DNA from: a candidate division Kazan bacterium
GTDB taxonomy: Bacteria; Patescibacteriota; Kazan-3B-28
DNA: 56,288 bases
Direction of reading: 5' to 3'
Assembly (NCBI GenBank): GCA_003647645.1
Contig: QMNG01000005.1
Span: 1 to 56,288 of the forward strand
This document shows positions 3,560 to 52,026 of the stretch, one piece after another. Below the pieces are notes generated by a model that worked only from the letters and a program-made list of their open reading frames with translations, ran no database searches and was not told the origin of the DNA. Within the stretch, counting starts at the first letter, position 1. Each line of letters begins with the position of its first letter. A program made the translations under genes and the position numbers.

Positions 3560-3590
3560 AAACAGGACATTTTTGTCCCGTTTATTTTTA
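3560..3590 (+). terminator. Intrinsic terminator after the AI-2E gene
   Basis: AAACAGGACA tttt TGTCCCGTTT stem followed by a T-rich tail (tttattttt). Confidence 0.7.
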
Positions 3591-3633: not shown

Positions 3634-3769
3634 TATTCCCTCCATGGTCTCTGGCTCCGCATTGGAGGAGAGACGACCATGAATTGAGCTAAATCCTTAT
3701 CGTGTGGGGTATGTTTGAGACCCTGACTTGTCGGGGAAGTTTACCCCTTTAAGCGGTAAAAGGATTTAG
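3634..3769 (+). ncRNA. Candidate structured RNA, copy A (strand not certain)
   Basis: tattccctcca; CTAAATCCTT...AAGGATTTAG helix enclosing GTGT-GGGGTA-TGTTTGAG-hairpin-AGTT-TACCCC; same architecture as 14365-14510. Confidence 0.6.
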
Positions 3770-3843
3770 CCAATGAAAAAGCCCAACGAACTGCGGCCGG
3801 CTTTGGCGCCATCGTTTGCCGGAACAAATGGTGGCTCAAAAAT

Positions 3844-10839: not shown

Positions 10840-10900
10840 GCCACCCGTTTGGACAAGCAAATGGGTGGCAAAAAGAAAACTTTTAATAAAAGTTATCACT
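10840..10900. repeat. Intergenic hairpin repeat, copy 1
   Basis: gccacccgtttg...caaatgggtggc + aaaaagaaaa + cttttaataaaag; second copy at 51958-52026. Confidence 0.7.
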
Positions 10901-14310: not shown

Positions 14311-14334
14311 AAATACTCACGGCCGTGAGTATTT
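14311..14334. terminator. 24-bp perfect palindrome downstream of rnc, possible terminator
   Basis: AAATACTCACGGCCGTGAGTATTT followed by TCG. Confidence 0.55.
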
Positions 14335-14364: not shown

Positions 14365-14510
14365 TATTCCCTCCACTTGTCGTCAGGCAATCATCGAGCG
14401 TTGAGCTTGAGGGAACTAAATCAAATAAATCTTTCATTCTGGTGTGCTATATGTTTGAATTCTGCTGTACAGCAGAATGAGTTTATAGGTAAACCAGAAG
14501 AAAGATTTAA
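14365..14510 (+). ncRNA. Candidate structured RNA, copy B (strand not certain)
   Basis: TTCCCTC/GAGGGAA; AAATCTTTC...GAAAGATTT plus CTGGT/ACCAG; CTATA/TATAG; hairpin ATTCTGCTGTACAGCAGAAT; loop motifs gtgtg, tgtttga, gttt, ggtaaa shared with 3634-3769. Confidence 0.6.
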
Positions 14511-14550
14511 TTAGATTTATACACAAAAGCGAACGCGTAAAGTTTTGCGC

Positions 14551-14570
14551 CACTTTTTAAAAAGTGGCAA
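14551..14570. repeat. Hairpin GCCACTTTTTAAAAAGTGGC near the nrnA-like 3' end
   Basis: gcgccactttttaaaaagtggcaaag; perfect inverted repeat. Confidence 0.55.
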
Positions 14571-51818: not shown

Positions 51819-51944
51819 CCCATTGAGCAAACTGCGTTAGCCAATAACAAAACTATCGCTGACGAAGCTACTGTCTGAGCGTTAGCGAGTTTAGCGTAAG
51901 TCGGAAAGATAGTTTTGTTTTTTGGCTAGCAATTTGTGAATGGG
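51819..51944. other. About 126-nt nested inverted repeat / possible structured RNA
   Basis: CCCATT..CAAA..TAGCCAA.AACAAAACTATC ... GATAGTTTTGTT..TTGGCTA..TTTG..AATGGG; inner CGCTGACG/CGTTAGCG. Confidence 0.6.
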
Positions 51945-51957
51945 CCCGCCTTTGGGC

Positions 51958-52026
51958 GCCACCCGTTTGGCGGCGCAAATGGGTGGCGAAAAGAAGTTTT
52001 GGCTACCTTTTAATAAAAGTAACACT
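51958..52026. repeat. Intergenic hairpin repeat, copy 2
   Basis: gccacccgtttggcggcgcaaatgggtggcgaaaagaagttttggctaccttttaataaaagtaacact. Confidence 0.7.

Follow-up and report, generated by a model that had tools for sequence, protein, structure and literature searches.

A cross-phylum family of small folded repeats with a TGTTTGA/GAGTT internal loop, probably mobile, found in a candidate division Kazan bacterium

The window, by which we mean the whole 56,288-nt stretch of contig QMNG01000005.1 of a candidate division Kazan bacterium that was analysed, contains three complete copies and one shortened derivative of a folded repeat, of which this genome carries six or more copies. Copies A and B lie in convergent gaps, as a preliminary description of this DNA had reported, the gap of copy B being that between rnc and dhh. 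The third copy, missed in that description, occupies the convergent gap ahead of a glycosyltransferase family 4 gene, and the shortened derivative sits between genes for a tRNA (m1G) methyltransferase and a KH-domain protein. In the following list, R1 is a rough covariance model built from four sequences (discussed later) and R2 is based on 53 sequences.

3657 to 3796, + strand: rod of copy A, outermost pairs CCGCA ... TGCGG, from folding; R1 match at 3692-3764 (78.6 bits) and R2 match at 3702-3751 (29.7 bits, E 9.3e-6), copy A itself belonging to the R1 training set and to the 53 R2 sequences
3712 to 3718, + strand: 5' strand of the copy A loop, TGTTTGA, from the R2 alignment; invariant in alignment A7, which was itself built around TGTTTGA
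3737 to 3741, + strand: 3' strand of the copy A loop, AAGTT (consensus GAGTT), from the alignment
3808 to 3835, + strand: separate 3' hairpin of copy A, GCCATC GTTTGCCGGAACAAAT GGTGGC, covarying with GCTACC/GGTAGC of the copy on contig C3
10782 to 10869, + strand: shortened derivative, outer end CTCCATTGAGC, apical part CTGCTGTACAGCA with TGAGT, most of the rod gone
14398 to 14536, + strand: rod of copy B, outermost pairs GCGTT ... AACGC, from folding; R2 match at 14442-14493 (E 3.8e-7), copy B likewise being among the 53 R2 sequences
14452 to 14458, + strand: 5' strand of the copy B loop, TGTTTGA, from the R2 alignment
14479 to 14483, + strand: 3' strand of the copy B loop, GAGTT, from the R2 alignment
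14549 to 14568, + strand: 3' hairpin of copy B, GCCACTTTTTAAAAAGTGGC
51819 to 51944, + strand: rod of the third copy, outermost pairs CCCATT ... AATGGG; R2 match at 51862-51901 (E 0.019)
51872 to 51878 and 51887 to 51891, + strand: loop of the third copy, TGTCTGA and GAGTT
51958 to 51987, + strand: 3' hairpin of the third copy, GCCACCCGTTTGGCGGCGCAAATGGGTGGC

The unit forms an imperfect rod, 126-140 nt long in the window and about 190 nt elsewhere (about 125-200 nt overall). Its hallmark is an internal loop whose 5' strand reads TGTTTGA and whose 3' strand reads GAGTT, flanked on one side by an apical hairpin and on the other by a helix that covaries freely; outward from this loop come further helices and loops, an outermost helix that closes the unit at its ends, and then usually a separate hairpin 3' of the rod. 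A G-A/A-G juxtaposition adjoins the apical helix, where sheared G-A pairs may form. Copy A is slightly degenerate in both the loop (AAGTT for GAGTT) and the apical hairpin. The third copy (51819-51987) is complete, folds with a z of -5.3 as DNA, and has outer arms resembling those of Kazan copies in the relative G006. The shortened derivative retains an intact 3' hairpin (10840-10869) and an apical palindrome that resembles that of copy B.

Sequence comparison and folding bore out the proposal that 3634-3769 and 14365-14510 are homologues with common covarying helices, and both regions fold far below dinucleotide shuffles (z of -4.4 for A and -5.8 for B, reached by 0 of 200 shuffles). The invariant strings and helices described for them are present at the coordinates given, but one string, tattccctcca, is located upstream of the rod, outside the family core. 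Nor does the family have only two members, given the third full copy, the shortened derivative and the homologues in other genomes.

Covariation was evaluated on 53 distinct sequences, with a pairing register picked after inspection of the alignment (two registers exist, the commoner with a bulged C). Both-sided changes were found at 12 of the 13 pairs of the middle helix and apical hairpin together, including all eight of the middle helix, and the covariation score was 0.508 compared with 0.170 ± 0.016 for shuffled alignments, none of 500 shuffles reaching the observed value; slid alignments scored at most 0.317. Of 73 non-redundant sequences among the matches listed for the stricter search pattern described below, 54 form the middle helix with five or more consecutive pairs; swapping of partners gave a mean of 6.6. 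This helix is absent from the search pattern; the GTCC/GGAC apical hairpin of the pattern-matched set, conversely, is imposed by the pattern itself. At the gathering threshold of Rfam 15, no family matched the elements in the window, copy A alone, or the elements at 15 loci from other phyla (the one match in the window is a tRNA far from the elements), and copy A gave no meaningful match at E up to 10, so that a known RNA family was rejected. The view of these sequences as conserved loops with covarying stems outside known families holds.

A first pattern, consisting of the strings common to copies A and B, identified a third site, on contig C3 of the window's genome, and a further one in a genome from another family of Patescibacteria. 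R1, built from those four sequences, recovered further homologues: more copies in the window's family and order, including the candidate division Kazan relatives G001 (METB01000001) and G006 (METE01), and in G062, a Magasanikbacterium, some of them near-identical within a genome (L025/L032, L023/L030). Three other R1 matches (L019, L020 and L021) were discarded as chance matches. A stricter pattern, TGTTTGAGTCC N(3-24) GGACGAGTT, run on species genomes, matched at least 120 stretches in many phyla, compared with approximately 10 expected by chance (estimated by hand). The matches listed include Bacteroidetes, Ignavibacteria, Deltaproteobacteria, Patescibacteria, Lachnospiraceae, Chromobacterium, Rheinheimera, Glaciecola, Elusimicrobia and others. 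Of 380 Patescibacteria genomes, 22 are carriers with up to eight copies each, a patchy distribution that extends to related genera. Only one viral contig contained the element and the phage and plasmid collections searched gave no match; a phage or plasmid origin was rejected on these grounds.

Where copies from one genome or genus could be compared (Flavobacterium, CP070652, Lachnospiraceae SIG293 and G268), they align to sharp ends, beyond which the flanks are unrelated. Four Flavobacterium genomes share a 66-nt left arm, with 14, 17 and 10 matches in three of them and at least 40 in the fourth, Flavobacterium sufflavum; identity is 94-100% for most of these. Insertion polymorphism is seen in the rnc/dhh gap of copy B, which measures 320 nt in the window and roughly 10-40 nt, element-free, in G004, G008 and G005. 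Element-like sequence was also seen 3' of dhh, in other contexts, at L248 (G001) and L251 (G006); the region downstream of dhh is a possible insertion hotspot. Coding sequence is avoided, with four copies inside ORFs. Divergent gaps hold 10 of 87 copies, compared with 23% of background gap length, and convergent gaps are mildly enriched (22 of 87 copies vs 17% of gap length); between tandem genes the copies are randomly oriented (28 vs 27).

The ends differ among lineages. Copies in CP070652 have perfect CGGG...CCCG inverted ends, and four of nine are bounded by exact, TTAA-like 4-bp target duplications, which, as judged by eye, are suggestive; SIG293 copies have different inverted ends, GTTTCATAAAGTATAG. 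In Flavobacterium and G268 the separate hairpin is found at one side only, and a search of these copies for a target-site duplication revealed none.

Several copies are compound. In G006 (L023, L030, L230, L231 and L234), several elements are immediately followed by another dispersed repeat, ATTCTGGACCCCAGTAGTAGAGC...GCTCACTACGGGGCGCGGCAAGCCAGAATGAC, with which they form repeat islands. L234 (G006:C4:86950-88200) is chimeric, its outer helix being mismatched because the left arm comes from one subfamily and the right arm from another, which suggests recombination at the apical hairpin. The minus-strand copy on contig C3 of G000 (L006/L024) contains within its 5' arm a hairpin, CCTGCCCGC...GCAGGCGGG, that belongs to another repeat and represents a nested insertion.

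We conclude with high confidence that the family is real, that it crosses phyla and that it consists of small folded repeats that are mobile. The explanation we consider probable is that of a small mobile element that is non-autonomous, has been selected to fold as a single strand and is mobilised in trans by a putative enzyme; in the single-strand folding and the recognition of the loop by such an enzyme we have moderate confidence. When single-stranded, the element would fold into the rod, with the outermost helix at its ends; a protein supplied in trans would bind the TGTTTGA/GAGTT loop, which keeps a fixed position next to the apical hairpin, and cutting or copying of the folded strand would be followed by its insertion elsewhere. 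Because only pairing and loops are proposed to matter, the helices would drift by compensatory change, and resident copies would decay, surviving mainly where no promoter is harmed. In favour of this explanation we count the number of stretches matched, the covariation, the sharp ends, the Flavobacterium copy numbers and the empty rnc-dhh gaps, together with the patchiness, the avoidance of divergent gaps, the random orientation and the near-absence from viral, phage and plasmid sequence. Against it we count the failure to find an autonomous copy or linked transposase, the restriction of suggestive duplications to CP070652, and a weak G-U excess (see below). As the outer ends vary by lineage, a single mobiliser for all is not proven; either any outermost helix suffices, or separate enzymes move one core.

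If the strand had been selected as RNA, a clear excess of G-U over A-C mismatches would be expected. Isolated mismatches in 97 rods comprised 30 G-U and 19 A-C, alongside 3727 Watson-Crick pairs, and variants within 17 groups of related copies comprised 45 G-U, 30 A-C and 90 other mismatches, plus 34 double changes; the Flavobacterium variants numbered 12 G-U and three A-C. A tRNA acceptor control gave 5:0, a sample too small to calibrate the comparison, and an earlier strand-polarity comparison on a loose alignment was uninformative because swapped partners showed equal bias. The weak preference for G-U over A-C means that one strand is mildly favoured and that the RNA form is not demonstrated; the data are compatible with either single-stranded DNA or RNA as the folded strand. 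Among helix variants confined to single copies, 120 of 199 break pairs, which fits selection for folding while a lineage is active, with resident copies then decaying neutrally.

These data also bear on the proposal, which we regard as unlikely, that the family is a functional RNA with a regulatory or protein-binding role, multiplied by duplication, or else an RNA that is itself retro-mobile. The strong covariation and the slight G-U excess agree with it, as do the tandem G-A juxtaposition beside the apical helix, typical of RNA internal loops, and a T-rich stretch 3' of the rod in many Bacteroidetes copies; the random orientation to neighbours, the absence of a promoter match or a common neighbouring gene family, the predominance of pair-breaking variants in single copies and the patchiness even between related genera speak against it. 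A riboswitch or leader was rejected because copies A, B and the third occupy convergent gaps. The preliminary description had suggested independent transcription of a functional RNA; what emerged instead is a dispersed repeat whose copies are sharply bounded, have unrelated flanks, show insertion polymorphism and are randomly oriented, and a search upstream of copies A and B revealed no sigma-70-like promoter. A + strand hairpin does precede each copy, but only that of copy A (3565-3578), and not the palindrome at 14315-14330 ahead of copy B, scored as terminator-like. A separate transcribed RNA gene is not supported and, in our view, unlikely.

It is similarly improbable, in our judgement, that the repeat is a REP-like element moved by an IS200-like tyrosine transposase (RAYT/TnpA-REP, Y1_Tnp), perhaps corresponding to the subclass 2.6 structures or TIRtron repeats. 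Such structures, with dispersed copies, are reported in PMC6006769 and PMC3733652, and folded hairpins with a mostly invisible target duplication would suit HUH enzymes. However, searches for Y1_Tnp (PF01797, E 0.001) found no match in the carriers G001, G002, G004, G005, G006, G007, G062, G033, G064, G103 and F. sufflavum, although a diverged homologue could escape the profile and some of these genomes are incomplete. Because so many carriers, F. sufflavum included, have no match, Y1/RAYT is an unlikely present mobiliser. Two cases of adjacency speak for such a transposase: an element lies beside a Chromobacterium RAYT, and in CP070652 a degenerate copy lies upstream of one Y1 gene. Against it, the Chromobacterium RAYT is the only one of 30 Y1 loci scanned to have an intact motif nearby, and there the element sits between the RAYT gene and that gene's own, different REPs. 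Overall, neither presence nor adjacency supported RAYT mobilisation.

A broader search for a mobiliser, in which ORFs within 1.2 kb of the 120 copies listed were compared all against all, revealed no enriched gene family and no linked transposase. An autonomous version sought with the left arm in G268 was not found, the partial matches L265 and L266 being variant or degraded elements with no transposase; in this non-exhaustive search, no related autonomous insertion sequence was seen beside the 120 copies or with that arm. The rod might also be no more than the long terminal inverted repeats of a miniature inverted-repeat element that ordinary DDE transposases mobilise. This reading would account for the CP070652 ends and duplications and the SIG293 inverted ends, but is very unlikely, as it leaves unexplained an asymmetric apical loop far from the ends yet conserved across phyla, and the one-sided terminal hairpin of Flavobacterium and G268 copies with no duplication.

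Compared with known systems, the element resembles REPs and REPtrons (PMC3733652, PMC6006769) in being dispersed, intergenic, palindromic, multi-copy, non-coding and patchy across phyla, and, like the CGTC REP class, it has no known transposase. REPs are, however, 20-40 nt long with a tetranucleotide foot, whereas the element measures about 125-200 nt, to which a hairpin is added, and has the TGTTTGA/GAGTT loop and no GTAG foot. In PMC3733652, which describes GTAG and CGTC REPs and TIRtrons, the CGTC REP has an unpaired CGTC tag, an 8-9 bp stem, a 4-5 nt loop and a CCA tail; stem and loop lengths vary in the element, and copies A and B have no tag. The GTAG or GTGG 5' foot of a 20-40 nt GTAG REP contrasts with a unit of at least 126 nt with hairpin feet TGTTTGA and GAGTT, and the REPtron arrangement, in which copies flank a RAYT gene of the same genome, was not found. 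The element shares with bacterial MITEs a short, non-coding, non-autonomous unit, sharp ends and many near-identical copies; inverted-repeat ends occur in CP070652 and SIG293, and 4-bp duplications are suspected in the former genome. Unlike in MITEs, the core loop and architecture are conserved across phyla and the ends vary; the non-exhaustive search revealed no parent insertion sequence.

PMC6006769 describes atypical secondary structures, with copies elsewhere, adjoining TnpA-REP subclass 2.6 genes in Bacteroidetes. Together with the TIRtron inverted repeats and the structures beside class 3 genes, these are likewise atypical folded repeats with copies elsewhere, although many carriers of our element have no Y1_Tnp match. 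Since the structures in PMC3733652 and PMC6006769 were compared by description and not by sequence, they may have provided an earlier glimpse of part of this family. Flavo-1 RNA (RF01705), another multi-loop hairpin annotated in Flavobacteria, is unrelated in sequence, even where (L045 3194-3274, Flavobacterium flevense) it shares an 8-kb stretch with a copy of the element. Our literature search found no description of a TGTTTGA/GAGTT element, sequence strings being poorly searchable.

Returning to the mobile element, we put forward tentatively, and with some doubt, that it represents a pan-bacterial class, conserved solely in the folded TGTTTGA/GAGTT loop and moved by an undescribed recombinase outside the IS200/RAYT group or by a reverse-transcription route. 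The family is a caution that repeats can imitate the covariation hallmark of functional RNA. Further members can be sought by its signature (TGTTTGA, hairpin, GAGTT and a covarying helix), and F. sufflavum, rich in copies and with no Y1 match, is a tractable isolate. A common folded core recurs in phyla as far apart as those of Flavobacterium and Patescibacteria, some carriers having reduced genomes in which no Y1 transposase was matched, which points to either (i) a single, widely travelling mobilising enzyme, or (ii) an interaction with a universal host machine.
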